Virus record (IMG/VR): IMGVR_UViG_3300045284_000364
Span: 1-26,293 of that record
DNA from: a virus
DNA length: 26,293 nucleotides
Strand: one strand, 5' to 3'
Below are positions 4,706 through 24,000 of the stretch, piece by piece. Position numbers and translations under genes: made by a program. Every line of letters starts with the position of its first letter. Position 1 is the stretch's first letter. The notes beneath the pieces are model-generated. The model did no database searches. It was not told where the DNA came from and saw nothing but the letters and a program-made list of their open reading frames with translations.

Positions 4706-4828
4706 GAGTAGAAACCACTGCAAATGCCTGCCCGTTCTCCGCGTCCAGCCTATGGGCCTGACGAATCCGCCACGGAACGGGCTCGGGTGTCCCAGGAGCC
4801 AGCCTGGGAGTCCTCGTGCAGGTCGTGG

Positions 4829-4834
4829 TACAAT
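4829..4834 (+). promoter_or_regulatory. -10 hexamer TACAAT, possible leaderless start of the small terminase mRNA
   Basis: TACAAT ends 6 bases before ATG 4841, so transcription would start at or next to the A of the ATG. No Shine-Dalgarno sequence lies in the 30 bases before that ATG. No clear -35 is seen. Confidence 0.4.
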
Positions 4835-4840
4835 GGCGCC

Positions 4841-5305
4841 ATGGACGAAAACCAGCGGATACAGTTCTTCGCGGTGCTCGCAGTGTCGGGCAGGCCGCTC
4901 GAGGCCTGCTTCGCGGCGGGCGTCCCGTTCCGCGACGTCAAGAAACTGCAGAAGTCAGACCCGGAGTTCGCTTACCGCTACGAGGAGTCCATGCTGCGGT
5001 TCTGCGAGACGCTGCAGGCCGAGGCAGTCCGTCGCGGGCGAGACGGCGTCGACGAGCCCGTGTTCGGCTCCCTGGGCGGCAACATGGGCTCAGGGAGAAT
5101 CGGCGAGAAGAGAGTCTACTCCGACCAGCTCCTCATGATGGAGCTGAAGCGGCGAGACCCGTCGTACCGGGAGAGAATGACGGTCGACGCCAACCTGACC
5201 GGTGGAGTGCTGGTCGTGGGACCCGTGGCCAAGTCGACGGAGCAATGGAAAAAGGAGAACGAGAATGCTGTTCCTGAACCAAGACCTGAAGTCGACGCCG
5301 GCTGA
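4841..5305 (+). CDS. terS: Terminase small subunit
   Basis: 154 residues. The N-terminal 50 residues form a helical DNA-binding-type region (FFAVLAVSGRPLEACFAAG; FRDVKKLQKSDPEFA). The second half carries the phage small-terminase signature: an AEAVRRGRDGVDEPVF segment, then KRVYSDQLLMMELKRRDPSY followed by RERM. It recognises the packaging site and recruits the large subunit at the portal. ATG 4841 is preferred to the upstream ATG 4724 because homology begins here and the upstream part is low-complexity. There is no ribosome site, so a leaderless start is proposed. The large-subunit gene is 5.3 kb downstream, unusually far. Confidence 0.8.
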   Translation: MDENQRIQFFAVLAVSGRPLEACFAAGVPFRDVKKLQKSDPEFAYRYEESMLRFCETLQAEAVRRGRDGVDEPVFGSLGGNMGSGRIGEKRVYSDQLLMMELKRRDPSYRERMTVDANLTGGVLVVGPVAKSTEQWKKENENAVPEPRPEVDAG

Positions 5306-5969
5306 GCCGCCCTTCGTCATCAACGCTCCTGACCCCGCTGGGAGCTACCTGAAGACCTGGAAAACGGCCGGGCGAGATTGCCTCAACGTAACGCTGCGGC
5401 GCAACCAGCCCCTGGACGAGAACGGGAAGGTCAGGGCCGAATTGCGGGTGCACAGGGAAGGCACCCCTGCGCGGCTCTTCCAGATGGACCCCATGGGCTC
5501 GCGCAGGAGCTCGGCCATCGGACTGTACGTGCCGGAAGACTGGCAGAGAGACGGGCAGAAAGTAATCCTCTTCCAGTGGCACCACTACGGGGAAGGGGTT
5601 TCCGGGGGAAACCCGCCACTCGCGTTCTTCATCTGGAACGACAACCTGTATTGCAGGCTCTGGCACGGGGACAAGAGCGACGCGGCGAGCTTCGTTGACC
5701 TGTACAAGGCACATTGCCCGAAAGGCCAGTGGCTGCACTTCCGCGTGGGCATCAAGTGGGACGCTGTGAACGGGGAAGTGGAAGCTTTGCTCTATGGCAA
5801 GCCCATGTTCCCGAAGTACTCGGGCCCGATCGGGTACAAGGACTCGCCTTTCATTTACAGCTCCATCGGGATGTACTGGCCGGGAGCCAAGTCGAGCTCG
5901 GTGCAGTCTCACCAGGCCTCCTATGGCTGGTGGAAAATCGGGGAAACTCTGGCGGACCTCGAGCCATGA
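5265..5969 (+). CDS. Polysaccharide lyase-like protein (heparin lyase I fold)
   Basis: 234 residues; ATG 5265 with AAAGGAG upstream, overlapping the small terminase by 41 nt. The central part follows the jelly-roll polysaccharide lyase pattern: RSSAIGLYVPEDW near 81-93, the ILFQWHH segment at 101-107, PPLAFFIW near 117-124, QWLHFRVGIKWD near 155-166, and IYSSIGMYWPG near 197-207. In the heparin-lyase family the QWH region contributes to the substrate cleft. No signal peptide, so it would act as a virion depolymerase or after lysis against host capsule or exopolysaccharide; a purely carbohydrate-binding role is possible. Family call is moderately firm, substrate unknown. Confidence 0.65.
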   Translation: MLFLNQDLKSTPAEPPFVINAPDPAGSYLKTWKTAGRDCLNVTLRRNQPLDENGKVRAELRVHREGTPARLFQMDPMGSRRSSAIGLYVPEDWQRDGQKVILFQWHHYGEGVSGGNPPLAFFIWNDNLYCRLWHGDKSDAASFVDLYKAHCPKGQWLHFRVGIKWDAVNGEVEALLYGKPMFPKYSGPIGYKDSPFIYSSIGMYWPGAKSSSVQSHQASYGWWKIGETLADLEP

Positions 5970-6295
5970 ACGCGCGCGACGCTGCAGCGCGCCTGAGGGT
6001 CATGGGTGTGACCAGCGCCAGCTCGAAGAAAGTGCTGCTGGAGCTGGCCGACTGGCTGGAGAAGGGAGCGGAGGTCTCCTTGGCGGAGGCCTCTCTCGCC
6101 GAGCTGTTCAAGGCCACGGCTTCCCGCGGCGCCCTCGCCCTGACCGTGGTGGCCAACATGGTGAACGGGAAAGAGGTGGTGTCGGTGCAGGCTGCCGGGA
6201 TGACGAGCGGCTGCGTGGGCCTGGCCGACGTGGCGAAGCGCCACCTCTGCAGGAAAATGAGCACGCAGAAAAAAGCCACCTGGGACGAAAAATGA
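5966..6295 (+). CDS. Hypothetical protein
   Basis: 109 residues, ATGA overlap with the lyase gene. Helical N-terminal half (ARDAAARLRVMGV; KKVLLELADWLEKG; SLAEASLAELFKA), then a small beta/alpha region and a basic C-terminus (KRHLCRKMSTQKK). No recognised domain. Co-translation with the lyase suggests a linked late function. It is followed by a promoter-like gap. Confidence 0.55.
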   Translation: MNARDAAARLRVMGVTSASSKKVLLELADWLEKGAEVSLAEASLAELFKATASRGALALTVVANMVNGKEVVSVQAAGMTSGCVGLADVAKRHLCRKMSTQKKATWDEK

Positions 6296-6306
6296 CGGTT
6301 CGCGGG

Positions 6307-6327
6307 CGAGCGCGCTCGTGGTAGGAT
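6307..6327 (+). promoter_or_regulatory. CGCG palindrome plus TAGGAT -10-like element
   Basis: A perfect 12-bp palindrome CGAGCGCGCTCG (6307-6318) sits 3 bp before TAGGAT (6322-6327); TTCGCG at 6299-6304 is 17 bp upstream of the hexamer. It lies in the 65-bp gap before the glucosyltransferase gene. The palindrome followed by a T-rich run could instead be a weak terminator of the preceding genes. The same layout recurs at 15599 and 19040. Confidence 0.4.
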
Positions 6328-6360
6328 TTGGTTTTCTCGTTTCTCGAAAGGACCTCTCCC

Positions 6361-7497
6361 GTGAAGATAGCTCTGCTGCGCTTCGGCAGGGGCTTGGTCA
6401 ACGCCAAGATACCCAACGTGACGGCCGCCGAGGAGGTGGGACTCGCCCTGGACCTCAAGGCCCTCGGCCACGAGCCAGTCATATACAGCAACTGGATGAG
6501 GGGCCACGAGCGCGACGAGTGGGGAGGCATCCCGTTTGCCAGCGTGATAGACTGGATCGAGGAAGTCAACTCCTGCGACGCCATGCTGATGTTCAACTGC
6601 ACGGTGAACTTCTTCGGGGGAGCGGAGCACGAGGGCTCCTGCTACGCGCAGCGAGCCTTCTGCCAGTTCCCCGGCCCCGTGGCCATGGTGGTGACCGACC
6701 CGCTCTGCCTGAACCAGGCCTGGAAGTATGGACCGCGACTCCCCAACCACCCCTGGCTCTCTCGTTACCCCGAGACGGAGTACTTCGCCCTTCGCGGGAA
6801 GCGGACCAGCGTCATCACGAACTTCAGGGACCTGGACAAGGTGCGGGACACGTGTGCCCGGAAGGTGAGCTGGAGCTGCGTCGAGCCGTTTGACTTCTTG
6901 GACCAGGGATACCTGACGCACTTCAGGTTTACGAATCTCGACGCGGTCAGGACCGTGGACCTCGGCTACGGCGGTTCAGGTCGGACTGGCAAGCGCGAGG
7001 ACCAGCTGAGGGAGTTCTACTTCGGCCATGGATACCTCGACGTCAGGATGTGTGGCACCATCTCGCAGAAGAATTTCTCGGACATGCCTTCTCCCGGTAC
7101 TGGCGTCCCGGCCTTCATGGGCAAGACCGCAGACTACTTCGAGTACCTCGACTTCATGCGGTCTTGCTTCGCGACGGTCTTGACGTGCGACGAGTGGTAC
7201 GAGGACAACTGCGTCCCCGCCAGGCTCGTGGAAGCGGCGGTGTGCGGGACCATCCCGCTGATAGACAGGGAGTACGACTCGAAGGGGCTCTTCGTGCGCA
7301 ACGACCCCCTGCTCGAGGAGCATTGCTACGTGTCCTGCAGGAAGGACGTGTCGGACAAGATTCGCCAGCTCAGGGCCAACCCGCAGCTCGCCCAGGAGAT
7401 CAGGGACAGGCACTCCAGGATATGGGTCGGGTACCCCCGTTTTTTAGACCGTCAGGCCAAGCTCGCGGGCATACTGAGGAGGCACTTCGGATGCTGA
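6361..7497 (+). CDS. T4 beta-glucosyltransferase-like DNA glycosyltransferase (GT63)
   Basis: 378 residues from GTG 6361 (GAAAGGA upstream; an in-frame TTG at 6328 is the alternative). It is collinear with T4 beta-glucosyltransferase (351 aa), which moves glucose from UDP-glucose to 5-hydroxymethylcytosine in DNA. Matches from memory of T4 BGT: N-terminal MKIALLRFG...N..K; a Glu after the first strand (E24/25, T4 E22); VNFFGG at 82-87 (T4 INFFGG); VTD at 111-113 (T4 catalytic D100); YGGSGRTGKRE at 203-213 with R208 and R212 (T4 R191, R195); YEDN at 280-283 (T4 YNDN); RLVE at 288-291 (T4 R269 and E272); then LIDREYDSK (T4 LIDEEFDTK). All known donor-binding and catalytic positions are kept, so an active enzyme is likely. 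Acceptor base and sugar are not determined. No hydroxymethylase is in the window. Confidence 0.85.
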   Translation: MKIALLRFGRGLVNAKIPNVTAAEEVGLALDLKALGHEPVIYSNWMRGHERDEWGGIPFASVIDWIEEVNSCDAMLMFNCTVNFFGGAEHEGSCYAQRAFCQFPGPVAMVVTDPLCLNQAWKYGPRLPNHPWLSRYPETEYFALRGKRTSVITNFRDLDKVRDTCARKVSWSCVEPFDFLDQGYLTHFRFTNLDAVRTVDLGYGGSGRTGKREDQLREFYFGHGYLDVRMCGTISQKNFSDMPSPGTGVPAFMGKTADYFEYLDFMRSCFATVLTCDEWYEDNCVPARLVEAAVCGTIPLIDREYDSKGLFVRNDPLLEEHCYVSCRKDVSDKIRQLRANPQLAQEIRDRHSRIWVGYPRFLDRQAKLAGILRRHFGC

Positions 7498-7955
7498 AGA
7501 CTTTCTTGACGATCTTGCGCCACAAGAGATTTGTGTACAGGGCAGGACGCAGGCTCGGCGTCTCCAGGTGGAGGCTGCTGAAGCATGACCTGTCGAAGTT
7601 CTCTCCCAGGGAGTTCCTCGCCTATGCCCAGCAATTCGGCCCCGGGAAAGAGAGGAACCCGTCGCGCTTCGCCGCGGCTTGGCTACACCACGTGCAGCAC
7701 AACGACCACCACTGGGAGCACTGGGTGCTGCCCCAGCCCGGGAAGGAGAACGTGTCCCTGGACATGCCGGACCAGTGCATCCGCGAGATGGTCGCGGACT
7801 GGCTCGGGGCGTCGATGGCCTACGAGGGCTACTGGCCCGTCAAGGGCAAGTGGAGGTGGTACACAGAGAACTTCAAGAATATCCAGCTGTCGTCGCTGAC
7901 GCGCCTGAGGGCACAGCTGTATGTCAACCAGGCGCTGACCCCGGAGGCGAGATGA
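7491..7955 (+). CDS. DUF5662 family protein (His-rich, HD-like)
   Basis: 154 residues, ATG overlapping the glucosyltransferase stop by 7 nt. The family signature is clear: KHDLSKFSPREF at 31-42, AWLHHVQHNDHHWEHW at 63-78, and EMVADWLGA at 99-107. The many conserved His and Asp residues look like a metal site of the HD-phosphohydrolase type, but the biochemical function of DUF5662 is unknown. Cytoplasmic; no signal or membrane segment. Tight coupling to the glucosyltransferase makes a nucleotide or DNA-modification role worth considering, though the pairing could be incidental. Confidence 0.75.
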   Translation: MLKTFLTILRHKRFVYRAGRRLGVSRWRLLKHDLSKFSPREFLAYAQQFGPGKERNPSRFAAAWLHHVQHNDHHWEHWVLPQPGKENVSLDMPDQCIREMVADWLGASMAYEGYWPVKGKWRWYTENFKNIQLSSLTRLRAQLYVNQALTPEAR

Positions 7956-8149
7956 AGAAGAAATCGCGCGGTGGCAACGCCTGCTGGATAGCCACGGAGA
8001 CGCGGAGAGGCTGGAGAGTGAAGCTGTCAACCGACTATCGCGACTTCCCGCTCTCCGGGCTGCTGCTGGATAGCTGCAAGGACGTGAAGCAGCTCCGCGG
8101 CTTGTCGGTGGTGTTCGTGTACCTGGACGGGAGCGAGTACAGGCCATGA
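7952..8149 (+). CDS. Small basic hypothetical protein
   Basis: 65 residues, ATGA overlaps at both ends; GGAGGCGAG just upstream. N-terminus KKKSRGG is basic; the rest looks like a small beta-rich fold (WIATETRRGWRVKLSTDYRD; VVFVYLDGSEY). Family not recognised. The overlapping arrangement supports coding. Confidence 0.55.
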   Translation: MKKKSRGGNACWIATETRRGWRVKLSTDYRDFPLSGLLLDSCKDVKQLRGLSVVFVYLDGSEYRP

Positions 8150-8481
8150 GCCTCGATCCGATCAACGGATTTTTCGAGTTCGCTGGCTCAGCCCTACTGT
8201 GGCTGAACGTCGCCGCTCTCGTGAGAGACAAGAAGATAGCTGGAATCAAGTGGTATTCCGTGGCATTTTGGACTCTCTGGGGCTTGTTTAACTGCGCGTA
8301 TTACCCCTCTCTCAGCCAGTGGTGGAGCTTCGCGGGCGGCGTCTCCGTGGTCAGCGTGAACTGCGTGTGGCTGGCGCTCCTGTGGAAGTACTCGAGGTCC
8401 AGCCGCTCCTTGTCGTACGTCGAAGAGACAGTCCACGGCGTGGAACCCGGGCGCAGGAGATTCTTCAGGGACGACCGATAA
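8146..8481 (+). CDS. Multi-span phage membrane protein
   Basis: 111 residues, ATGA overlap with the upstream gene. Three hydrophobic segments near residues 8-25 (EFAGSALLWLNVAALV), 35-52 (KWYSVAFWTLWGLFNCAYY) and 60-82 (WWSFAGGVSVVSVNCVWLAL), with a basic C-terminal tail. The pattern MSLDPINGFFE...GIKW...F.LWG.FN..YYPSLSQW resembles small phage membrane proteins of unknown function. Holin activity is possible but no other lysis gene is adjacent. Confidence 0.65.
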   Translation: MSLDPINGFFEFAGSALLWLNVAALVRDKKIAGIKWYSVAFWTLWGLFNCAYYPSLSQWWSFAGGVSVVSVNCVWLALLWKYSRSSRSLSYVEETVHGVEPGRRRFFRDDR

Positions 8482-8493
8482 GATAGGATCATC

Positions 8494-9663
8494 ATGATAG
8501 CTTCACACGTACATGCGGCAGTTCTCGTGCTCATCCCCGCGGCGGGTCGCTGGCTCCCGTCCATGGTGACGCCGTCCGGCGAGCAGCGCAACATCACGTC
8601 CACCACGACTGGAGGGATACAAGAAGCGATTGACTACGCGTGCGAGAAGGGCTTCGATCTGTACATCTCAGGGGGAGACGAGGACACTGGGGGAGCCACG
8701 GTATATGACTGCGGGTCAACCCCGATCGTGTTCCCGCCGATGCAGGGCAAGCGCGTCGCCACCGGGGCGATCACGCTGAACTTCAGCGGGGCCATTGGCA
8801 TGGCGCCGGGGATCAGGTTCGACAGCTGCATGATGGTCGACGTCGAGTTCTCCGCGGCCCAAATTGTCTACGCGGGGGAAGGCGCGGCGATTGAGTTCAA
8901 GCCCGTCAACCAGCTGCCGCTTGACCCCTTGGCCGCCATCATAGACTCCAGGTTCTTCTTCACCACCGTGGTGAGCCCGACCGGGACGTCGCTCGTCAAG
9001 TTCAGCACCTACTCCGGGGACATAACTTCGTGCGAGTTCAACTTCGTCGAGCTCAACGGCGCGGAGACAGGCGTGCTCGTGCACCAGGGGAGCCGACCGT
9101 TCCAGTCCAACTCGCTGCGGTGCCCGCACGTCCACGGGCAGTCCGAGACGTGCGTCTCGTTGGGCGACTCGGTCGACTTTGCCGACAACGTGCGGGACAA
9201 CTCGCTGGAGGTCTTCGCGTTCCCCCCGGACGGCGTGACTGCCTTCGACGTGTATGGCAGCGAGAACAAGGTATGTGGCCACTCTCGGGCCCCAGATGGC
9301 GCCACGCCGGCCCACGGGGTGCGTTTCAGGGCACCCGCGGCCAGCAACGAGTGCGACTTCCAGCACCTCGACGGCGGGATATTGGACGAGTCTACGGCCG
9401 CCACGAACCGCGTCGAGGAGCTCGGGCCCAAATCCCACTCGACGGTGACGGTCGGAGATTCTCCCTTCGTGTACCAGAACCTCGACGCGAAGATCGAGAG
9501 AGTCACGGTGCAGGGTGGGTCCGTCACCGGCAACTTGCTCATGAGCCTGGACGGCGCGACCTACTATGACCTCGGACTCCCGGCCGGGATGTTCACGCTG
9601 TACCCAGGAGAATATTTGAAGATAGTGCACGCGGGAGCCCCGACGATGAGGAAGTTCCAATGA
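8494..9663 (+). CDS. Beta-helix receptor-binding / tailspike-like protein
   Basis: 389 residues. GIQEAIDYACEKGFDLYISG (residues about 45-65) is the opening helix and strand typical of phage right-handed beta-helix spikes. Residues 70-300 are short repetitive beta turns rich in Gly, Asp and Ser. The last 70 residues (SPFVYQNLDAKIERVTVQGG, then TYYDLGLPAGMFTLYPGEYL and APTM) match a C-terminal beta-sandwich domain common on phage receptor-binding proteins. ATG 8494 has AGGA upstream; an ATG at 8563 would remove a hydrophobic 23-residue N-terminus. It probably binds or degrades a surface glycan. Encoded in the cargo between the terminases, with the polysaccharide lyase. Confidence 0.7.
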   Translation: MIASHVHAAVLVLIPAAGRWLPSMVTPSGEQRNITSTTTGGIQEAIDYACEKGFDLYISGGDEDTGGATVYDCGSTPIVFPPMQGKRVATGAITLNFSGAIGMAPGIRFDSCMMVDVEFSAAQIVYAGEGAAIEFKPVNQLPLDPLAAIIDSRFFFTTVVSPTGTSLVKFSTYSGDITSCEFNFVELNGAETGVLVHQGSRPFQSNSLRCPHVHGQSETCVSLGDSVDFADNVRDNSLEVFAFPPDGVTAFDVYGSENKVCGHSRAPDGATPAHGVRFRAPAASNECDFQHLDGGILDESTAATNRVEELGPKSHSTVTVGDSPFVYQNLDAKIERVTVQGGSVTGNLLMSLDGATYYDLGLPAGMFTLYPGEYLKIVHAGAPTMRKFQ

Positions 9664-9854
9664 CCATCTGCTTCCACTGCGACTTCAAGGAGGCCAAGGT
9701 CCGCTACCGCGGCGCGAAGGTATGCCGGGACTGCCGTCGCGACCTCGAGTCGGGCAACTCGGCCGGGATCCACGCCCGCCGGCTGCGCGGGAAAGAAGTC
9801 CGAGACTTTTTCAGCGACCAGCCAGACCACAGACGAGGTAAGATATACACATGA
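9660..9854 (+). CDS. Small zinc-ribbon protein
   Basis: 64 residues, ATGA overlaps at both ends. Two CxxC knuckles, CFHC (4-7) and CRDC (22-25), indicate a compact zinc ribbon followed by a basic helix (HARRLRGKEVRDFFSD). Such proteins in phages are usually nucleic-acid-binding or adaptor proteins of unknown role. First of a run of five overlapping mini-genes. Confidence 0.65.
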   Translation: MTICFHCDFKEAKVRYRGAKVCRDCRRDLESGNSAGIHARRLRGKEVRDFFSDQPDHRRGKIYT

Positions 9855-10129
9855 GAGGCGCGAGAGTCAAAGAGCTGCGTGAGCAGGTGGAGCGGTTCCA
9901 CTTGCGGTTGACCAAGAACCAGTGGCGCGAACTGAAGCGGGCATGGGCTCGAGGCGAGCGAGATGTCGTCGCGGCGCTCAGAAAGATTAAACTGTCCAAG
10001 GTGCGGGACGCTGCTCCTGCTGTGGAGATTCGGCCACCCAACGGACGAGCGCGAGGCGTTCTGTCATCTCTGCGAGTACTGTCTAGTGTGGGACTCCTCG
10101 AGAGACTTTTTTCGAGAGGTAAAGGATAA
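9851..10129 (+). CDS. Small basic helical protein
   Basis: 92 residues, ATGA overlap upstream with GAGGTAAG as ribosome site. The first 57 residues are strongly helical and basic (ARVKELREQVERFHLRLTKN; RELKRAWARGERDVVAALRK). The last 35 share their DNA with the zinc-ribbon frame starting at 9963 and look less natural. The gene may therefore be shorter in function than in length, or a frameshift near 9990-10010 may have separated an original two-domain protein. Confidence 0.5.
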   Translation: MRGARVKELREQVERFHLRLTKNQWRELKRAWARGERDVVAALRKIKLSKVRDAAPAVEIRPPNGRARGVLSSLRVLSSVGLLERLFSRGKG

Positions 10130-10169
10130 TGCCGCGGCCAACGAGGCGACCAGGCCAGACGACCGTTGA
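9963..10169 (+). CDS. Small zinc-ribbon protein nested in overlapping frame
   Basis: 68 residues. CPRCG (11-15) and CHLCEYC (33-39) form a clear zinc-ribbon pair separated by LLLLWRFGHPTDEREAF, followed by LVWDSSRDFFREVK. The match to a zinc ribbon is far better than expected of a shadow frame, yet 167 of its 207 bases also encode the end of the gene at 9851. The ribosome site is weak (GAGGCGAG). Real as a domain; whether it is a separate gene or the displaced C-terminus of the 9851 gene is open. Confidence 0.55.
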   Translation: MSSRRSERLNCPRCGTLLLLWRFGHPTDEREAFCHLCEYCLVWDSSRDFFREVKDNAAANEATRPDDR

Positions 10170-10332
10170 GCTAAATCCTATCAAGGTGACCCAAGATGAG
10201 TGGGAAAGGATTTTCGGCAAGCGGGAAAGGAAAATCTGGGCCCCGGAAGGCGACCCCATTCGGGAGCGCGAGCGGGAACCTCGGGAAGACGCGGCGGCCC
10301 TCAAGGAGTACCAGCGCGGAATACTTCGTTGA
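10129..10332 (+). CDS. Small charged hypothetical protein
   Basis: 67 residues, TAATG junction with the upstream gene and GAGAGGTAAAGGA as ribosome site. Contains VTQDEWERIFGKRERK, a motif type seen in many small phage proteins of unknown function, followed by an Arg/Glu-rich helix. Overlaps the 9963 frame by 41 nt and the 10196 frame by 137 nt. Confidence 0.55.
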   Translation: MPRPTRRPGQTTVELNPIKVTQDEWERIFGKRERKIWAPEGDPIREREREPREDAAALKEYQRGILR

Positions 10333-10408
10333 GCCCGAGGACGAGCTCCTCGACGACGGCATACCGAAGTACTGCCCGGAGTGTGGGACGAAGCTGAGGG
10401 AAGACTGA
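10196..10408 (+). CDS. Small protein with C-terminal CPECG knuckle
   Basis: 70 residues from an ATG with AAGGTGA upstream. The first 40 residues are Gly/Ser/Lys-rich low complexity read across the 10129 gene; the last 30 (EYFVEPEDELLDDGIPKYCP, then ECGTKLRED) are a natural zinc-knuckle tail. The C-terminal part is surely coding; the N-terminal part is less certain, and a frameshift from the 10129 frame near 10320 would also give a sensible fusion. The stop overlaps the next ATG (TGATG). Confidence 0.5.
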   Translation: MSGKGFSASGKGKSGPRKATPFGSASGNLGKTRRPSRSTSAEYFVEPEDELLDDGIPKYCPECGTKLRED

Positions 10409-10677
10409 TGGAAGGCTGGCCAACCAACAACTTCACTATCTTGGCCAGGGACCAGCACAGGGACGTCGAGATGAAGTCGGTGGTCAAGGCGTTCACCTTC
10501 GAGAGGGCCAGGGAGAGCTTCGAGAGAGCCTATCCCCCGTCGAGGTACCCGGTGCGCGAGGTGCGGTTCACCATAGACTTCGAGCTCGACCATGTCTTCC
10601 CGGACGGCGACACGCTGCGAGAGCTGCTGGCCATGGCCGAGGAAGGCGAGATAGTTTGCACGACCGACTTGGACTAG
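10408..10677 (+). CDS. Small hypothetical protein
   Basis: 89 residues, TGATG junction. An alpha/beta mix: VVKAFTFERARESFERAYPP helix, VREVRFTIDFELDHVF strands, and an acidic C-terminal helix. No family recognised. Overlaps the large terminase start by 22 nt, so the two are translationally linked. Confidence 0.6.
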   Translation: MEGWPTNNFTILARDQHRDVEMKSVVKAFTFERARESFERAYPPSRYPVREVRFTIDFELDHVFPDGDTLRELLAMAEEGEIVCTTDLD

Positions 10678-12179
10678 AGTGGCACGAAGACGCGGGGGAG
10701 CTGAAGGCTTTCCGCGACGGTCGCGAGATAGCCTGGGCTCCCCAGACCGGAGCCCAGTACGCTTTCCTGAGCTGCCCGGTGTTCGAGGCCCTGCTCGAGG
10801 GCAACCGCGGCGGCGGCAAGTCGGACGCGTTGGTCATGGACTTCGCCCAGCACTGTGGAATAGGCTTCGGCCCCGACTGGCGAGGCATGCTCTTCCGCCA
10901 GACGTACAAGCAGCTCGAGGACATAGTCGCCAAGACCAAGAAGTGGTTCCCGAAGGTCTTCGCGGGGGTGACCTTCAACTCGACGGCCATGCACTGGGAC
11001 TGGCCCACGGGCGAGCGGCTCTACCTGTCCTACATGGAGCGTGAGCAGGACTACTGGGGCTACCACGGGCACGCGTACCCCTGGGTGGGATGGGAAGAGC
11101 TCACCACCTGGCCCACCGACAAGTGCTACAAGGTCATGATGTCATGCTGCCGATCGACGAAGGCGGGCGTCTACCTCGAGAGGGAGAACCCAGATACCGG
11201 GAAGACCGAGCTGGCGTGGGAACCCATGCCCAGGAAATACAGGTCCACGACCAACCCGTACGGCGTGGGACACAACTGGGTCAAGCTGCGCTTCGGGTTG
11301 CCGGTCCCGCGCCACAGGCTCAGTGGACAGGTGATAAACGACAAGGCTGGGGACCGCGTGGCCATACATTGCGACCTGGAGAGCAACAAGGTGCTGCTGC
11401 ACGCCGAGCCGGGCTACCTCGACAAGGTGCTGATGTCAGCGATGAACCCGTCGCAGGCCAAGGCGTGGGCCGAGGGCTCCTGGGACATCGTCGCGGGAGG
11501 CATGTTCGACGACCTGTGGCAGCCGTCGACGCACGTCGTGCCGGACCTGTCGCCGAAGTCCATACCGCACGAGTGGAGGATCAACAAGTCCTACGATCAC
11601 GGGCAGTCGCACCCTTTCAGCGTCGGCTGGTGGGCTGAGTCAAATGGAGAGCCCATAAAGGTAAGCGGCAGGACGCTCGGCGGTGTCCCCGGTGACCTGT
11701 TCAGGTTCGCCGAGTGGTACGGGTGGAACGGGCAACCCAACGAGGGCATCCGCATGACGGCGCGCGACATAGCGCAGGGGATAGTCGAGCGCGAGACCAA
11801 GATGGGCATACTCGGCCGCTGCAAGCAGGGTCCGGCAGACTCATCTATCTTCGATGACTTCGAGCCTGGCAGCTCCGTGGCTGGCGAGATGAGGGCGAAG
11901 GGAGTCCTGTGGCAGCCCGCGCAGAAGGGACCAGGCTCGAGGATCCAGGGCTGGCAAGCGATACGCGCTATGCTGAAGAACGCCGCGCAGCAGCCCAGGG
12001 AGGAAGCCGGCCTGTTCGTCTGCGAGGGATGTGAGCAGTTTATAAGGACGGTGCCGGTCCTGCCGCGCCTCGAGAAGAACCTCGACGACGTGGACTCAGA
12101 CGCCGAGGACCACGTCGGGGACGAGGTACGCTACCGCGTGCGGGAGAGGATACACGCCGCGAAGTCGAGGAGTTTCTAG
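10656..12179 (+). CDS. terL: Terminase large subunit (ATPase and nuclease)
   Basis: 507 residues. ATPase domain: Walker A GNRGGGKS at 49-56, then the FRQTYKQLEDIV segment, and Walker B with catalytic Glu at 142-148 (PWVGWEE). Nuclease domain, RNase H-like: acidic residues at D314 (SYDHG), D395 (GPADSS) and D489 (GDEVRYRV), the usual three-Asp spacing. It pumps DNA into the prohead and cuts the concatemer. The start is TTG 10656, with GAGGAAGG upstream inside the preceding gene; no ATG or GTG fits before the conserved EWHEDAGELKAF region. Isoleucine is ATA in 13 of 18 codons, quite unlike the capsid gene. Confidence 0.92.
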   Translation: MHDRLGLEWHEDAGELKAFRDGREIAWAPQTGAQYAFLSCPVFEALLEGNRGGGKSDALVMDFAQHCGIGFGPDWRGMLFRQTYKQLEDIVAKTKKWFPKVFAGVTFNSTAMHWDWPTGERLYLSYMEREQDYWGYHGHAYPWVGWEELTTWPTDKCYKVMMSCCRSTKAGVYLERENPDTGKTELAWEPMPRKYRSTTNPYGVGHNWVKLRFGLPVPRHRLSGQVINDKAGDRVAIHCDLESNKVLLHAEPGYLDKVLMSAMNPSQAKAWAEGSWDIVAGGMFDDLWQPSTHVVPDLSPKSIPHEWRINKSYDHGQSHPFSVGWWAESNGEPIKVSGRTLGGVPGDLFRFAEWYGWNGQPNEGIRMTARDIAQGIVERETKMGILGRCKQGPADSSIFDDFEPGSSVAGEMRAKGVLWQPAQKGPGSRIQGWQAIRAMLKNAAQQPREEAGLFVCEGCEQFIRTVPVLPRLEKNLDDVDSDAEDHVGDEVRYRVRERIHAAKSRSF

Positions 12180-12227: not shown

Positions 12228-13694
12228 ATGCCAGAATCAGACCCGAGGCTAGACCCGTCGACCACGTCCAGCGAGTACGACGCGATGGTGCCCAAGTGGG
12301 ACAAGATACAGACACTGCTCGAGGGCACCGCTGCCATGCGCGCCGCCGGGAAGAAGTTCTTGCCTCGCCACGAGAAAGAGACCGAGATAAACTACCAGAA
12401 CAGGCTGCAGATGACAGTGCTGTTCAACATGACGCAGATGACGCTCGACATGTGGGTCAGCCAGCCATTCTCCGAGCCCGTGAAGGTCGCGGACGACGTT
12501 CCCGGGGAAATCAAGAAACTGCTGGATGACGTCGACCTGCAGGGCAACGACGTGACCGTGTTTTCCCGGGACCAGCTCAAGGAAGGGCTGTCCAAGGCCT
12601 ACACGCACGTGCTGGTGGAGTATCCCCAGACATACGGGGTGAATACCCTGGCAGACCAGCGCGCGGCGAATCTCCGCCCCTACTGGTGCGTCATAAAGCC
12701 GGAAAACCTGATATTCACCTCGAAGGAAGTCGTCGCGGGGGTCAAGGTCTTGACGCATGCCCGGGTGCGCGAGACGCAGACGGTGAGGGACGGCTTCGCG
12801 GAGCGCGTCGTCCATAGGATACGCGTGTTTGACAGGTATGAGAATTATGCGCCCCCGTCGTCATCCGCGTCGGGCGTAACTGGGCCCGTCGTCACGGTAT
12901 CTCTCTACGAGTGGCAAGAAGACATCAAGACCAAGAAGGGCAAGTGGGTGCAGATACAAGCTCCGACGAAGATAGACATTGACGTGATACCCATCGAGAC
13001 GTTCGAGGCTGACTGTACCAAGCCACCGATAGAGGACATCGCCGACCTGAACGTCGAGCATTGGCAGTCTAAGGCTGAGCAGCGGTCGGTCTTGACCGTG
13101 GCGCGCTTCCCCATGCTGGCCGCTTCCGGCGCGACGGATGACGAGTCCTCTGTGGGCATCGGGCCTCGCCAGTTGCTCCACACCACGGACGCGGCGGGCA
13201 AATTCTACTACGTGGAGCATTCCGGGGCGGCGATCGCGGCGGGCAGGCAAGACCTGTTGGACATAGAGGAGAAGATGGCCGGCTACGGCGCCCACTTCCT
13301 GACGAAGAAACCGGGCAACCCCACTGCCACGGCCAAGTCCATCGACTCGGCCGAGGAGACCTCGCGCCTGCAGGATGCGGTCGTGAGATTCAATGACTTC
13401 CTGGCGAGGCTGCTGGCCCTGACGGCGAAGTGGATGGGGATGGACCCCGCCGCCGCGGGCAGCGTCGTGGTCGGCACGGACTTTGGCCCGACGATAGACC
13501 AGGGAGGTCTGCAAGCCCTGGTGCAGGCGCGCCAGCTGAGGGACCTCGGGCGACAGGAGTTCTTGTCCGGGCTCCAGGAGATGGGGGTGTTGCCCAAAGA
13601 ATTTGACTTTGACCAGAATGACAGGAACTTGGAGTCGGAGAACTCGGCGTTCTCCGGGCCGCCAGTCACGGGACCGATACACAACATGGGGTGA
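12228..13694 (+). CDS. Portal protein (DUF4055 family)
   Basis: 488 residues, ATG with GGAGGT upstream, directly after the large terminase as expected. Features of DUF4055 portals: YDAMVPKWDKIQTLLEGTAA at 17-36, HEKETEINYQNRL near 48-60, GLSKAYTHVLVEYP near 120-133, and RPYWCVIKPENLI near 148-160. The C-terminal third is a long helical domain (EETSRLQDAVVRFNDFLARL). It forms the dodecameric ring at the packaging vertex that docks the terminase and later the head-tail connector. Normal length; no anomalies seen. Confidence 0.85.
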   Translation: MPESDPRLDPSTTSSEYDAMVPKWDKIQTLLEGTAAMRAAGKKFLPRHEKETEINYQNRLQMTVLFNMTQMTLDMWVSQPFSEPVKVADDVPGEIKKLLDDVDLQGNDVTVFSRDQLKEGLSKAYTHVLVEYPQTYGVNTLADQRAANLRPYWCVIKPENLIFTSKEVVAGVKVLTHARVRETQTVRDGFAERVVHRIRVFDRYENYAPPSSSASGVTGPVVTVSLYEWQEDIKTKKGKWVQIQAPTKIDIDVIPIETFEADCTKPPIEDIADLNVEHWQSKAEQRSVLTVARFPMLAASGATDDESSVGIGPRQLLHTTDAAGKFYYVEHSGAAIAAGRQDLLDIEEKMAGYGAHFLTKKPGNPTATAKSIDSAEETSRLQDAVVRFNDFLARLLALTAKWMGMDPAAAGSVVVGTDFGPTIDQGGLQALVQARQLRDLGRQEFLSGLQEMGVLPKEFDFDQNDRNLESENSAFSGPPVTGPIHNMG

Positions 13695-14503: not shown

Positions 14504-15595
14504 GTGGCCACCGCCAATTCCGACTACTTCGACGCGCAGCTGCGGCATGCCATCGGGGTGCGCCGATTCACTGCCGGGGAAGTGAAGAGGATACTGGCGC
14601 TGATAGAGAAGGGAGACCGGTCTCTCGCGTCCGACTTGCTGGACAAGCTCGGGGGATTCCGGTCTCCCCCTGACTTCAAGAGCGAGCGCTGGCTGAACCT
14701 GCTGCGCTCCGTGCGCGACGCGCGCCAGGAGTTGATCCTGAACGCGCGCAACGAGACGGCTGACTCGCTGATAGATTACGCCAAGCACGAGGCAGAGTTC
14801 GAATCCAGCACGCTCCAGCTGGTCATCCCCGTGTCCATAGACCTCGCTTCCGTGTCTGTCGAGCAGCTGCGCGAGATAGTCTACCGCAGGCCCTTCCAGG
14901 GTCACCTGCTCAACGACTGGTACAAGCAGATAGCCCTGAAGGACCGGGGGGAGATAACGCGGCAGCTGCAACTCGGCATGGCCCAGGGGGAGAGCATACC
15001 CGACATCGTGAAGCGCGTGGCCGGGACGGCAGCCAACAGCTTCGAGGACGGCGCGCTCGGGGGGACGCGACGCGGCGTCGAGGCAGTGGTGCGGACGGCA
15101 GTCAACCACGTGTCGAACGCGACGCGCGAGCAGATATGGGAAGATAACGCAGACATCATCGCGTACAAGAGGTGGACTGCCACCCTGGACAGGAGAACGT
15201 CCGCCATCTGCCGAGCCAACGACGGCAAGGGCATCCCCGTGGGCGACAAGCCCCTGCCCGACGGGGTTGACCCGGTGGTCCCCGAGGGCATCACGCCTCC
15301 CGCCCACATTAACTGTCGCAGCGTCCTCGTCGCAGTTCTCGACGGCGAGGGCGTGCTGGGCAACAGGCCATTCGTGGCCACCGAGAGCGGCGAGAAGGTG
15401 ACGCCCGAGGACATCGGGCAAGTGCCTGCCAGCACCACGTACTCCGACTGGCTGAAGACGCAGAGCGCCTCGTTCCAGGACGACGTGCTCGGGCACTCGC
15501 GGGGGCTCGCTTTCAGGAAAGGCGAGTACGCCCTGGACGAGTACGTGGACAGGAAGGGCAACGAGTTAACGCTTTCCCAGTTAAAGCTCGCTTGA
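14504..15595 (+). CDS. Minor head protein (Mu gpF / SPP1 gp7-like)
   Basis: 363 residues from GTG 14504 with GGAGAG upstream. The C-terminal half has the phage Mu-F head-morphogenesis signature: AVVRTAVNHVSNATREQIW near 198-216, TLDRRTSAICRANDGKGIPV near 227-246, and PPAHINCRSVLV near 264-275, with the paired Cys residues. The N-terminal half is helical. Such proteins are packaged in a few copies near the portal and help head assembly or DNA delivery. Position after the portal is the standard one. Confidence 0.85.
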   Translation: MATANSDYFDAQLRHAIGVRRFTAGEVKRILALIEKGDRSLASDLLDKLGGFRSPPDFKSERWLNLLRSVRDARQELILNARNETADSLIDYAKHEAEFESSTLQLVIPVSIDLASVSVEQLREIVYRRPFQGHLLNDWYKQIALKDRGEITRQLQLGMAQGESIPDIVKRVAGTAANSFEDGALGGTRRGVEAVVRTAVNHVSNATREQIWEDNADIIAYKRWTATLDRRTSAICRANDGKGIPVGDKPLPDGVDPVVPEGITPPAHINCRSVLVAVLDGEGVLGNRPFVATESGEKVTPEDIGQVPASTTYSDWLKTQSASFQDDVLGHSRGLAFRKGEYALDEYVDRKGNELTLSQLKLA

Positions 15596-18251: not shown

Positions 18252-19019
18252 ATGGATTTCGATTTTGGTGACGCGGCCGTGGTAGAGACGCTGGACAAAG
18301 TGCCCGAGCAATTCAGGCCCCTGTACGCGGAGACGCCGGAGAAGAAGTTCGCTATCAAGTCGGCGGACCCGGCCATCAAGGGAGCCGTCGAGGCGATCGT
18401 GGGCTTGAACAGGGCGCTCAAGGCCGAGCGCGCGACGAAGAAACCGACGGTGGACCTGAGCCCGCTGAAGGACTACGGCGCCACGCCCGAAGAGATCAAG
18501 GCGAAGCTGGACGAGATGGCGGCGCAGGTAACTGCCAACGCGAAGATAGACGTCAAGAAGATCAAGGACGAGATGGCCACGCAGTTCAAGGGCGAGATAG
18601 ACAAGAGGGAAGCCCGTGTGCTGGCCCTCAAGTCCATATTGGACGGGCATCTCATCGACTCGGCCCTCAAGGGAGCCATCGCGTCAGAGAAGGGGGACGT
18701 GGACCTGCTGCTGCCGTTCGCGCGCGGCTTCATGAAGCCGCTCGAGGTAGACGGGAAGTACACGGCCATGGTGGTCGACGAGGCGGGCAACGCCCGCTAC
18801 TCGGGAATCACGGGCCTCCCGCTCAGCCCCTCGGAGCTGGTCAAGGAGATGAAGGCCAACCCGAAATTCGGGAAGCTGTTCGAGCCGGACGCCAAGAGCG
18901 GGGGCGGGGCGAAGCCAGGGGCAGCCAGCCGCACCCAGCAGGCTCCAAATAGTACTGCTAACTTGTCTGCCATGGACAAGATTCGCATGGGCCTGGACGC
19001 GATGCAAACTGCTCGCTGA
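18252..19019 (+). CDS. Scaffolding protein
   Basis: 255 residues, immediately upstream of the capsid gene, GGAG ribosome site. Typical scaffold composition: an N-terminal LDKVPEQFRPLYAETPEKKF region, a long charged coiled coil (KAKLDEMAAQVTANAKIDVK and onward to about residue 130), then a LILxG-like packing region (ALKSILDGHLIDSALKGAIA) and the EFA/FARGFMKP...DGKYTAMVVDEAGN segment. The C-terminus is Gly/Pro/Ser-rich, ending in a basic helix. It directs prohead assembly and is then expelled or degraded. Confidence 0.8.
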   Translation: MDFDFGDAAVVETLDKVPEQFRPLYAETPEKKFAIKSADPAIKGAVEAIVGLNRALKAERATKKPTVDLSPLKDYGATPEEIKAKLDEMAAQVTANAKIDVKKIKDEMATQFKGEIDKREARVLALKSILDGHLIDSALKGAIASEKGDVDLLLPFARGFMKPLEVDGKYTAMVVDEAGNARYSGITGLPLSPSELVKEMKANPKFGKLFEPDAKSGGGAKPGAASRTQQAPNSTANLSAMDKIRMGLDAMQTAR

Positions 19020-19157: not shown

Positions 19158-20123
19158 ATGAGTTCCGTAACTCTCGCAGAATCGGCAAAGCTAGCCCAGA
19201 ATATGCTGGTCGCCGGCGTGATTGAGAACATCATCACGGTAAATAAGATGTTCAAGATGCTGCCGTTCGATGGCATCGACGGCAATGCCATCGCGTACAA
19301 CCGCGAGGCAATTCTCGGCGGAGGTGGCGTTGGCACGGTAAATGATTCCATCACGACCGACGTCAGCGACCCGACGGAGAGCGACGCCAACAACGCCAAG
19401 GACCCGGCGACGTTCGACTTCCACACGGCCGCGCTGACATCGATCATCGCCGACGCGGAGGTAAACGGCCTGATCGAGGCGACTCGTTCCGGTTTCGGCA
19501 ATGACCAGAAAGCCACGCAGGTGGCGTCGAAAGCCAAGAAGGTTGGCCGCATTTACCAGCAAATGCTGATCAACGGCACGGGAGCGGGAGCCCAATTCAC
19601 GGGTCTCTTGGGGCTATGTGCTTCTGGGCAGAAAGTCGACACGGGAGTGGACGGCTCGAGCTTGACGTTCGAGATTTTGGATGAGCTGATCGACCTGGTG
19701 ACTGACAAGGACGGCGACGTGGATTACTTCACTCTCCACGCCCGCACTCTGAGGAAGTATTTCTCGCTCCTGCGCGCCCTCGGGGGAGCGTCGATCAACG
19801 AGACCGTAGCGATGCCTGATGGCATGATGGTCCCGGCCTACAGGAGCATCCCGCTGTTCAGGAATGACTGGATTCCGAAGAACGTCACGAAGGGTAACCA
19901 GACAGCTTCAACTAGCTATGTCATCGCCGGAACATTCGACGACGGTTCCCGCACGCATGGCATCGCAGGCTTGACGGCCTCGAACGCCGCGGGGATCAAG
20001 GTCGTGGAAGTTGGGGAGAAGGAAGACGCGGACGCCACCATCACGAGGATCAAGTGGTACTGCGGACTCGCGCTGTTCAGCGAGAAGGGCTTGGCCCTCG
20101 CCGACGGCATCCGCTCGACGTGA
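19158..20123 (+). CDS. Major capsid protein
   Basis: 321 residues, following the scaffold gene, with the size and character of an HK97-fold major capsid protein: helical N-terminus (ESAKLAQNMLVAGVIENIIT), MLPFDGIDGNAIAYNRE, a DGSSLTFEILDELIDLV spine-helix region, VPAYRSIPLFRNDWIP, and a beta-rich C-terminus ending CGLALFSEKGLALADGI. It builds the icosahedral shell. All 23 isoleucines use ATC (18) or ATT (5) and none ATA, in contrast to the large terminase, as expected for a very highly expressed gene. Preceded by its own promoter-like leader and followed by a terminator-like hairpin. Confidence 0.88.
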   Translation: MSSVTLAESAKLAQNMLVAGVIENIITVNKMFKMLPFDGIDGNAIAYNREAILGGGGVGTVNDSITTDVSDPTESDANNAKDPATFDFHTAALTSIIADAEVNGLIEATRSGFGNDQKATQVASKAKKVGRIYQQMLINGTGAGAQFTGLLGLCASGQKVDTGVDGSSLTFEILDELIDLVTDKDGDVDYFTLHARTLRKYFSLLRALGGASINETVAMPDGMMVPAYRSIPLFRNDWIPKNVTKGNQTASTSYVIAGTFDDGSRTHGIAGLTASNAAGIKVVEVGEKEDADATITRIKWYCGLALFSEKGLALADGIRST

Positions 20124-20194: not shown

Positions 20195-20752
20195 ATGAGT
20201 TTTTTCAAGATCGACATCGTGGGGAACAGTCGCGTAGACGAAGTCAAGAGCATGATCGTAGAGGCAGACAGCCTCGCGATCGCGAAAGCCCTCGCGGAGG
20301 CCCAGTTCGACGGGGACAGCCCGTGGTCGAGCGGGGCTGAAATCGTCACGGCATCTTCTGACCTGACGGGCTGGTCCTACAAGATCAGGATCGGGAACAC
20401 CGAGGCGGGATACTTGTCCGCCAAGAGCGGGGCTCCCGTCGTGGAGGTCGAGTACGTGGGCATCGAGAACGACACCGTCGACGACGTCGGCGCGGCTCTC
20501 GTGACGGCCCTCAACGCCTCGTCCTTGATCGCCGGCGCTGCCTATAACACGAGCAGCAATGTGCTGACCATCGCCGAGACGACCGACGTCCTGGGAGACC
20601 GCACGGTCGAAGTGCTCGTCACTCCCCCGGGCGGGAAGTCGCAGATGTCTGCCATGACGTCCACGCTCGTCCACGCTGGCTTGTCCAGCGCGGCCTTGAA
20701 GGTGACGCTCGTGGCGCCGACGAAGATTCCCAAGGTGCTCTCGGAAATCTAA
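20195..20752 (+). CDS. Structural protein sharing a C-terminal domain with the 21064 protein
   Basis: 185 residues, AAAGGGGA ribosome site, directly after the capsid gene. N-terminal helical part (DEVKSMIVEADSLAIAKALA), then beta-rich residues from about 55. The last ~110 residues match the C-terminus of the giant protein at 21064: ENDTVDDVGAAL against DNDTLTDVLDGL, GDRTVEVLVTPP against GDRSMTVTVTPP, and KIPKVLSEI against KIPKVIKEF. All 12 Ile codons are ATC or ATT, as in the capsid gene, suggesting abundance. A capsid-decoration protein is the best guess; the shared domain may be the capsid-binding part. Confidence 0.7.
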   Translation: MSFFKIDIVGNSRVDEVKSMIVEADSLAIAKALAEAQFDGDSPWSSGAEIVTASSDLTGWSYKIRIGNTEAGYLSAKSGAPVVEVEYVGIENDTVDDVGAALVTALNASSLIAGAAYNTSSNVLTIAETTDVLGDRTVEVLVTPPGGKSQMSAMTSTLVHAGLSSAALKVTLVAPTKIPKVLSEI

Positions 20753-20946: not shown

Positions 20947-21061
20947 GAAGCAGGTCGCTTACTTGCTGAGCAGGTGGAGCCCGCTGACTGGGCAACAGAA
21001 AGAGAAGCTCATGAACGAACTGCACGGTGGCCAAGTCAGGGTCTCCGGCAAGAAGAGGTAA
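20918..21061 (+). CDS. 47-residue basic phage protein
   Basis: MPPGQKTKSKKQVAYLLSRW, then SPLTGQQKEKLMNELHGGQV and RVSGKKR. Basic start, then a helix. The SPLT..QK.KL..ELH.G.V.V pattern occurs in tiny phage proteins found near structural genes, with no known function. AGGAG lies about 11 nt upstream. Two bases separate its stop from the next GTG. Confidence 0.6.
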   Translation: MPPGQKTKSKKQVAYLLSRWSPLTGQQKEKLMNELHGGQVRVSGKKR

Positions 21062-21063
21062 AC

Positions 21064-24000
21064 GTGACGACCCAGGTCATCAAGCACATCAAGCCGTCGG
21101 GCGGTGACTACGCCTCGTTGGCGGAAGCGGCGGCGGACGTCCACAACCTGATATTCCTCGACCAGCAATGGGACCTGGTGTGCGACACGTTTCTCGATAC
21201 CGCGCCCGCGGACTTCACCGCGTGGATCCTCGGCGGGCCGAACTTCATCAGGATACGGCCCACGGATCCTGGGCAGTTCAAGGGCACTGAAGACACGAAC
21301 ACCTACCGTCTGCACGTCGCCAGCGGCTTCGCCATCCACATGGGCGACAATGGCAATGGCGGCGGGACGTTCATCTCCTGCGAGGGCGTCCAGTTCATCA
21401 CGGACGACCCGACCAATAAAGCCATAAGTTTCTCTGGCGGCACGGACGGGAAGATGCTCCTGTATCGCTGCCAAGTCATATCCGCGGGTCAGGGATGGCA
21501 CACTACCGTCAACAGGAACCTGGACGTTTTCGAGACCACCTTCGTCTGCGCGGGTTCCTGCATAGTCCGCGAGGACGGCGATTGCCAGATTTACCAGTCT
21601 ACGCTCATAACGACGCAGGCAGGTGAGCACTGCGTGAACTTCGGGGCCTCGGATGGCAAGACGCGGAAGGCGTTCAACACCTACGCCAAGGGAGGCGGCT
21701 CGGGAGGCAACGCCTACAACGGCGCCGGCACCACCCTGACCAAGGCCGCCTCGAACGACACCACGGGCACTGCCACCGAGCAGAGCATAGCCTACTCGAC
21801 CGCGAACTTCAAGAACGTCACCGCCGGCTCGGAGAACCTGCAGATACCGACGGGAAGCGCGCTCAAGGACACGGGCGCGGACCGCTCGGGTGAACCCGCT
21901 CCGTTCAACACGGGCGGAGACATATTAGGCAATTCGCAGCCGTTCAACACCAACTACGACATCGGCTCCTACGAGTACCAGCCTCTCCCTCCCGTGGCTG
22001 ATTTCTCGGCAGACCTGACGACGATCATCGCCGGGACGCTCGTCAGCTTCACGGACTTGTCGACCCAGACTCCCACGAGCTGGGCCTGGACGTTTGGCAC
22101 GGGAGAGGGCACGTCGGCGGCGCAGAACCCGACGCACACGTACAATACTCCTGGGACTTTCACGGTCACGTTGACGTCGACCAACGCGGACGGCTCGGAC
22201 CTGGAGACCAAGACCAACTACATAGTGGTCCAAGCCGCGGTAGTGGCTGATTTCCACGCCGACGTGACGACGGTAGAGCTCGGGGACCAGGTGCACTTCA
22301 CGGACGACTCCACGGGGAGCCCGACAGCGTGGGCGTGGACGTTCGGGACAGGACAGGGCAGCTCCATGAACCAGAACCCGACCAAGATATACAGCGCCCT
22401 GGGGACCTATGACGTCTCGCTGACGGCCAGCAAGGTGAGCCCGAATTCGTCGGACGTCGAGACCAAGACCAGCTACATCACGGTGGTCGACCCGCCCCCG
22501 GTGGCTGATTTCCACGCCGACGTCACCACGACCGGCAGGAAAGACACGATACAGTTCACCGACGACTCGACCAACAACCCAACGTCCTGGCTGTGGGACT
22601 TCGGCGACAGCAACACTTCTACCGACCAGAACCCGACGCACCAGTACGCCGCCTTGGGCAACTACACGGTGACGCTGACGGCGACCAACGCCCAGGGCTC
22701 TGACCCCGAAGTCAAGACGAATTATATCCACGTGGTACCGCCGACCGAGGTGGACATCCTGGTCGACCCGGGCAGCGGTGACTACCCGTCGCTGTTCGAC
22801 ATGGCGGCCGACGCGCAAGACTTGGTGGCGCAGAACGTTTTCTGGGTCGTCACCGTGTCGAGCTTCGCGGAAGTCACCAGCGTGGATTTTACCGGGTGGA
22901 ACACCGACGACACGCGATACCTCGACATCCGAATCGAGGAGCCGTCGACCCTGCATGGTGCCCTGAGCGGGGACTCCTATTCGCTGACGGGCACGCTGTT
23001 GTTCAGCGACATCGGGACGGACGGATACGCCAAGTTATCCGGGATACAAGCAGTCGCGAACGGCGCCAACCAGGCAGTCAAGGTAGACTGCGCAGCGGGG
23101 GCCACGGTGGAGATAGGAAGGATCATAGCGTTTGGGAACGGCGCTACCCCCGCCGTTTTGGCAGAGTCCGGGACGACTCTCATGTACGACTCCGTGGTCA
23201 ACGGTCACGTGACCCAGTCCGGGGGTACCTGTAAAATCTATTCTTCCACGGTGATAGGAACCGTGGACCTCGGAGACGTCGGCAGCGGGACGCTGTTCAA
23301 CGTCTATGCCCTCGCCTATTTGGGCCTCACGGCGGCCGTGGTGACATCTTCGGCTTCCGCGGACAACTCCGGCTCTCTCGACCTGCGCGGCATCCCGAAC
23401 GATACATCCACGTTCTTGGGTACAGATGATTTCAGGCTGCAACCCACGAGCCCGCTGAAGGATTCCGGCTCTAGCCGCTCTGGCGAAGACCCGCCGTTTG
23501 ACTTCGCTGATGATTTTTCCGGGAGCCCTAGACCTGACGACGGCGGGCTGGAAGACGTGGGAGCCTTCGAGCAATTCGCCGTGGAAGCAGACTGGCCCAC
23601 GGACGTGTTCCTCGTCACGAAAGGACCCGCGCTCGCTGAAAGAAACTCAGTGAAGTCTTCTCTCACCCTGGCAGACGACTCTACGTTCGCCAAGAAGATA
23701 AATTCGGCTCTCAGCCCGGACGAGGGCTGGGAAAACTCTTCCACTGAGCAAGTCGCCACTCCCGCGGCTCATGGGTGGTACGGGTGGACGTTCAAGATAG
23801 ACGGCCCGTTCAAGGCGACCTACGTCGGGCACGACAACGACACCTTGACAGACGTCCTGGACGGGCTGTCCGCGCAGGTTGGGGGGTCCTCGGTCTCGGG
23901 GAGGAAACTGGTGTTGGCGAGCTCGGGATATGGTGACAGGTCCATGACTGTCACAGTGACTCCGCCCGAGGCGACGAGACCCGTCAACTTCGTGGTCTTG

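Follow-up and report, generated by a model that had tools for sequence, protein, structure and literature searches.

A β-glucosyltransferase gene between the terminase subunits

The window analyzed here, a linear, 26,293-base IMG/VR fragment from an uncultivated phage, carries between its two terminase genes a gene whose frame runs uninterrupted from a GTG start to the stop codon (Table 1). The gene shows no sign of decay: the frame is open, a good ribosome-binding site precedes it, and its base composition (GC 62%, GC3 87%) and codon usage resemble those of its neighbors. The encoded protein scores 35.5 bits against Pfam PF09198, above the curated cut-off of 27, and matches PHROG family phrog_7922 ("beta-glucosyltransferase") over residues 1–351 (1.2e-34) and the T4 DNA β-glucosyltransferase (BGT) structure in the PDB (4.9e-26). 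It shares ∼25% identity with T4 BGT over 346 aligned columns, and by these sequence comparisons the similarity far exceeds chance. A search for a second glycosyltransferase (PF13524) in the window and its relatives matched only the BGT itself.

Table 1. Features of the phage fragment around the BGT gene
Feature	Position	Strand	Evidence	Remark
Terminase small subunit, TerS (phrog_4044)	4724–5305	+	profile	
Polysaccharide lyase (PF14099, 5.2e-19)	5202–5969	+	profile	first cargo gene; true start probably ATG 5265
Cargo insert holding BGT	5306–10655	+		5.4 kb between TerS and TerL; variable in relatives, nearly absent in YuA/M6/CN2
Likely ribosome-binding site AAAGGA	6347–6352	+	sequence	8 bases 5' of the BGT GTG
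DNA β-glucosyltransferase (T4 BGT family, PF09198/phrog_7922)	6361–7497	+	profile, PDB and fold matches	378 amino acids
NFFGG codons (residues 83–87)	6607–6621	+	alignment	motif of the family, with Phe or Tyr as its third residue
Codon of catalytic-base Asp-113 (T4 Asp-100)	6697–6699	+	alignment	followed by one-residue deletion relative to T4
DUF5662 protein (PF18907, 1.1e-34)	7491–7955	+	profile	start codon overlaps BGT stop
Terminase large subunit, TerL	10656–12179	+	53–56% identity to Mesyanzhinovviridae isolates, 62% to L039	
Portal protein (DUF4055, phrog_145)	12228–13694	+	46–47% identity to YuA and CN2	
Head morphogenesis protein (Phage_Mu_F, phrog_241)	14504–15595	+	profile	
Head scaffolding protein (phrog_206)	18252–19019	+	profile	
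Major head protein (phrog_212)	19158–20123	+	61–66% identity to YuA/CN2 and relatives	
Protein with C-terminal DnaT_2 domain	24090–25511	+	51–53% identity to YuA/CN2 head-tail adaptor Ad1	

We built an AlphaFold model of the protein (pLDDT 75, pTM 0.77) on 13 sequences taken from the window and from loci; because the alignment includes T4-like BGTs, the model does not count as evidence independent of the sequence matches. Foldseek returned T4 BGT as the best match (1.9e-22), and VIA-align 2 superimposed the model on T4 BGT (PDB ID 1nzd) with a Z-score of 34.7 (345 residues, 3.1 Å), the runners-up being T4 α-glucosyltransferase (AGT, Z 22.8) and general GT-B enzymes (Z ∼20). The modeled GT-B fold is nearest to T4 BGT by a wide margin. 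The original prediction, made from the DNA letters, had named a T4-type BGT at this locus and proposed superposition on the T4 enzyme as a check; the predicted fold bears it out, as do the PF09198, phrog_7922, and PDB matches.

All positions that had been singled out as catalytic or UDP-glucose-binding align with their counterparts in T4 BGT: Glu-24 with Glu-22, Asp-113 with Asp-100, Arg-208 with Arg-191, Arg-212 with Arg-195, Arg-288 with Arg-269, and Glu-291 with Glu-272. In the T4 enzyme, Asp-100 is the base and the Arg/Glu set forms the ligands of UDP-glucose. These six residues and Asp-306 are conserved across 31 diverse BGTs, except for an alignment gap at Glu-24 in L306. The NFFGG motif, which other BGTs maintain, and the YEDN motif (residues 280–283) are likewise present as predicted. 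Collinearity with T4 BGT holds over the whole length of the protein but not strictly from end to end: there is an insertion of ∼13 residues N-terminal to NFFGG, and a single residue is missing immediately after the catalytic Asp. On this evidence, the protein is apparently an intact, although very diverged, version of the T4 enzyme.

Packaging and head genes

The packaging and head genes mark the carrier as Mesyanzhinovviridae-like, related to Pseudomonas phages YuA and M6 and to Bordetella phage CN2. TerS, TerL, portal, Mu-F, scaffold, major head protein, and the DnaT_2/Ad1 adaptor follow one another in the order seen in YuA, M6, and CN2, which from TerL onward is also that of their metagenomic kin, and portal identity to these phages and kin is 46–51%. 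TerL and portal trees place the fragment close to L039/G028, L014/G003, L015, and L012, with weak support within the group. Domain matches confirm the DUF4055, Phage_Mu_F, and DnaT_2 neighbors already recognized in the original prediction, none of which is T4-like. The prediction had also taken the carrier for a phage type in which glycosylated hydroxymethyl-pyrimidine is not routinely expected. That view has to be revised, since in the YuA/M6 lineage modified pyrimidines are the rule: M6 DNA carries 5-NedU, a 5hmU-derived base (PMC6449724), and a hydroxymethyltransferase was found in all Mesyanzhinovviridae analyzed (PMC11946847).

The adaptor is extended N-terminally by ∼300 residues compared with those of YuA and CN2, which are ∼170 residues long. 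The end of a large PKD-domain protein (20974–24090) apparently resembles a small virion protein (20195–20752), both matching the same L267 stretch, and its N-terminal part looks by eye like the DnaT_2 protein; judged by these resemblances, the three genes likely encode paralogous decoration or adaptor domains. A collagen-like G-x-y repeat protein rich in NGT repeats (25511–26293) runs past the end of the record.

The fragment differs from YuA, M6, and CN2 at the junction of the terminase genes. There TerS and TerL abut and BGT is absent, whereas in the fragment they are 5.4 kb apart. L039 and L012 likewise hold TerS-TerL cargo (3.5 and 5.6 kb, respectively); that of L039 includes a gene (8462–9238) whose product looks by eye like a serine protease of the trypsin type. 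The accessory genes in the slot would thus differ between phages. The polysaccharide lyase of the fragment is placed between TerS and TerL, not among the tail genes. Relatives of the DUF5662 protein in annotated phages are all distant (37% in Moorella phage MTATph1, for example), and the overlap of its start codon with the BGT stop makes translational coupling possible.

Distribution of BGT

Among annotated phages, 119 records match the BGT, and the matches listed belong to T4-like phages and Enterococcus phages. Profile scans of IMG/VR recovered ∼60 loci; a T4-type portal is present in 10 of a searched set consisting of 26 IMG/VR BGT records and T4 itself, including most of the longest records. 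Searches of 40 TerL-related records, of 23 MCP-related loci, and of the vicinity of 118 M6-type hydroxymethylases revealed no BGT. A single-protein scan of viral contigs yielded no close relatives, a genome contig scan gave 15 pattern matches with no relative among them, and plasmids gave no match.

In a comparison of 31 BGTs, the fragment's protein forms a lone, very long branch (∼3.4 changes per site) of unsure exact placement. As far as these sequences tell, it is the deepest-branching BGT among those found (∼25% identity), the nearest other BGT reaching at most ∼32% identity over part of its length. Both this divergence and the composition of the gene led us to reject a recent acquisition from a T4-like phage. 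The protein is like T4 BGT (gene b-gt) in fold, catalytic Asp, UDP-glucose residues, NFFGG motif, and overall length; apart from its sequence divergence, insertion, and deletion, it is unlike it in lacking an adjacent hydroxymethylase gene and in residing in a YuA-like rather than a T4-like genome.

A BGT outside T4-like phages has precedents in the Enterococcus siphophages VPE25/VFW, the DNA of which is bisulfite-resistant (PMC4999554), and in Vipetofemvirus nattely. The BGT of the latter lies on the T4 side of the tree, whereas the fragment's branches apart, and it has a D177 thymidylate-synthase-family gene directly upstream. Environmental phages (e.g. L300, L301, L304, and L313) have BGTs that share 30–32% identity (best segment) and the GGAE and DP-x-L-x-L-x-Q motifs with the fragment's protein, but these come from stretches of 43–52% GC that also encode a dCMP hydroxymethylase, and a T4-type portal occurs in several of the group's long records. 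New here, within the collections searched, are a BGT in the YuA/M6 lineage and the deepest BGT branch seen; BGT outside T4-like phages (PMC4999554) and pyrimidine modification in Mesyanzhinovviridae (PMC6449724, PMC11946847) are already known.

Hydroxymethylases and the acceptor base

Position 177 of the thymidylate-synthase family (E. coli numbering) is Asn in dUMP users and Asp in dCMP users, and position 147 differs too (PMC8670742). Nearly all other BGTs found have a hydroxymethylase within 10 kb, and the readable hydroxymethylases on BGT-bearing stretches are of the T147/D177, dCMP type in 59 of 59 cases (41 + 18, several being near-duplicates). The enzymes of M6, YuA, CN2, and SPO1 have N147/N177, as do that of G042, an MCP-near relative of the fragment, and 116 of the 118 M6-type hydroxymethylases in IMG/VR (dUMP type). 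The remaining two have D177. One belongs to G028 (L117:2830–3897), the phage whose TerL is most like the fragment's, and the other (L150:9899–10990) to a record with a phrog_145 portal; in these YuA-like phages the enzyme has apparently changed its substrate from dUMP to dCMP, and no BGT was found beside either gene. By eye, a ThyX-like gene lies directly upstream of the L150 enzyme. Other TerL-related phages (L113–L116) carry a second thymidylate-synthase-family type with P147/D177. By analogy, this type is perhaps cytosine-modifying as in XP12, a member of Mesyanzhinovviridae with full 5-methylcytosine (5mC).

The hydroxymethylase gene of M6, YuA, CN2, and G028 is located ∼17–21 kb upstream of TerS. 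We found no PF00303 hydroxymethylase in the 26-kb fragment, which begins 4.7 kb upstream of TerS; this absence says little because the fragment stops short of the expected site, the half with YuA-type replication and nucleotide genes lying outside the record. Long contigs of relatives, G003 (75 kb) and G044 (58 kb) as well as G043 and G045, also gave no match, so that a hydroxymethylase in the carrier is likely but not certain. A search for Tet_JBP dioxygenases (PF12851) returned no match in the window and its relatives, and no positive control gave a match either.

To our knowledge, base J (β-glucosyl-5hmU) has so far been found in kinetoplastids and their relatives. For the fragment's BGT, we favor 5hmC as the acceptor, giving glucosyl-5hmC as in T4, at about even odds; the preference rests on the habit of the BGT family, with its dCMP-type partners, and on D177 in G028. 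The foremost alternative, which we regard as about half as likely, is that a YuA/M6-type dUMP hydroxymethylase supplies 5hmU, that the product is base J, and that BGT replaces the kinase-based pathway of M6. It is kept alive by the N147/N177 enzymes that prevail in this mainly 5hmU-making lineage, by the 5hmU-derived base of M6 DNA (PMC6449724), and by the finding that T4 BGT accepts 5hmU in single strands (PMC4111573); in addition, the fragment's BGT is the most diverged member of its family, and the residue next to its catalytic Asp is deleted. Against it, no BGT found elsewhere is paired with a dUMP-type enzyme (0 of the 59 readable hydroxymethylases), the TerL-nearest relative G028 has D177, and on duplex DNA T4 BGT glucosylates 5hmU only when this is mispaired with G (PMC4111573). 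More doubtful still is the evolutionary scenario in which a deep-branching BGT replaced kinase-based thymidine hypermodification, so that virions would contain base J by a route unrelated to that of kinetoplastids. Loss of an Arg after the catalytic Asp was dropped as a mark of 5hmU enzymes, this residue being absent also from BGTs beside dCMP-type enzymes.

Discussion

We propose, with a probability of roughly 75%, that the gene is a working T4-family BGT which glucosylates the hydroxymethyl-pyrimidine DNA of a YuA/M6-like siphophage. A thymidylate-synthase-family hydroxymethylase of the phage's own would make a hydroxymethyl-pyrimidine nucleotide that enters phage DNA at replication, and BGT would then transfer glucose from host UDP-glucose to the hydroxymethyl group with inversion. 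The bulky sugar would block nucleases and could thereby guard against restriction and further defenses aimed at DNA. The glycosylated hydroxymethyl-pyrimidine of the original prediction thus stands as the best prediction for the virion DNA; what we infer are the activity of the BGT, the base on which it acts, and a hydroxymethylase gene in the portion of the genome outside the record. We count against this explanation that the 26-kb record, and likewise G003 and G044, are without a hydroxymethylase, and that BGT has a polysaccharide lyase beside it in a cargo slot and is not part of a DNA-metabolism block. The very long branch may also mean that the specificity of the enzyme has shifted.

It seems improbable that the protein is a degenerate enzyme or a BGT-derived moron glycosyltransferase whose acceptor is not DNA but, for instance, a glycan of the host or the virion. 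The adjoining lyase and variable TerS-TerL cargo would suit such a role, as would the lack of a linked hydroxymethylase and the long branch, but every catalytic and UDP-glucose residue and NFFGG are retained, the nearest fold is by far that of T4 BGT and not of sugar- or lipid-acting GT-B enzymes, and the gene is without signs of decay. An assembly chimera, in which a BGT segment of another phage was fused to YuA-like DNA, is very hard to credit even though a single record combining BGT with YuA-like genes was found, as packaging genes of the same lineage flank BGT on both sides in the correct order, it agrees with the rest of the fragment in codon use and GC (other metagenomic BGT stretches checked have 24–52% GC), and even the nearest BGT is only ∼32% identical, over part of the protein.

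We know of no previous report of glucosylated DNA in the YuA/M6 phage group. A glucosylating BGT in this lineage would add sugar-on-DNA to a phage family with two other pyrimidine chemistries, aminoethyl-uracil in M6 and full 5-methylcytosine in XP12. Because the readable BGT-linked hydroxymethylases are all of the dCMP type and YuA-type enzymes almost always of the dUMP type, the question of which base is glucosylated could be answered from one residue of the missing gene or by one assay. As the most diverged BGT found, the protein would be useful for learning the determinants of base specificity in this enzyme family.
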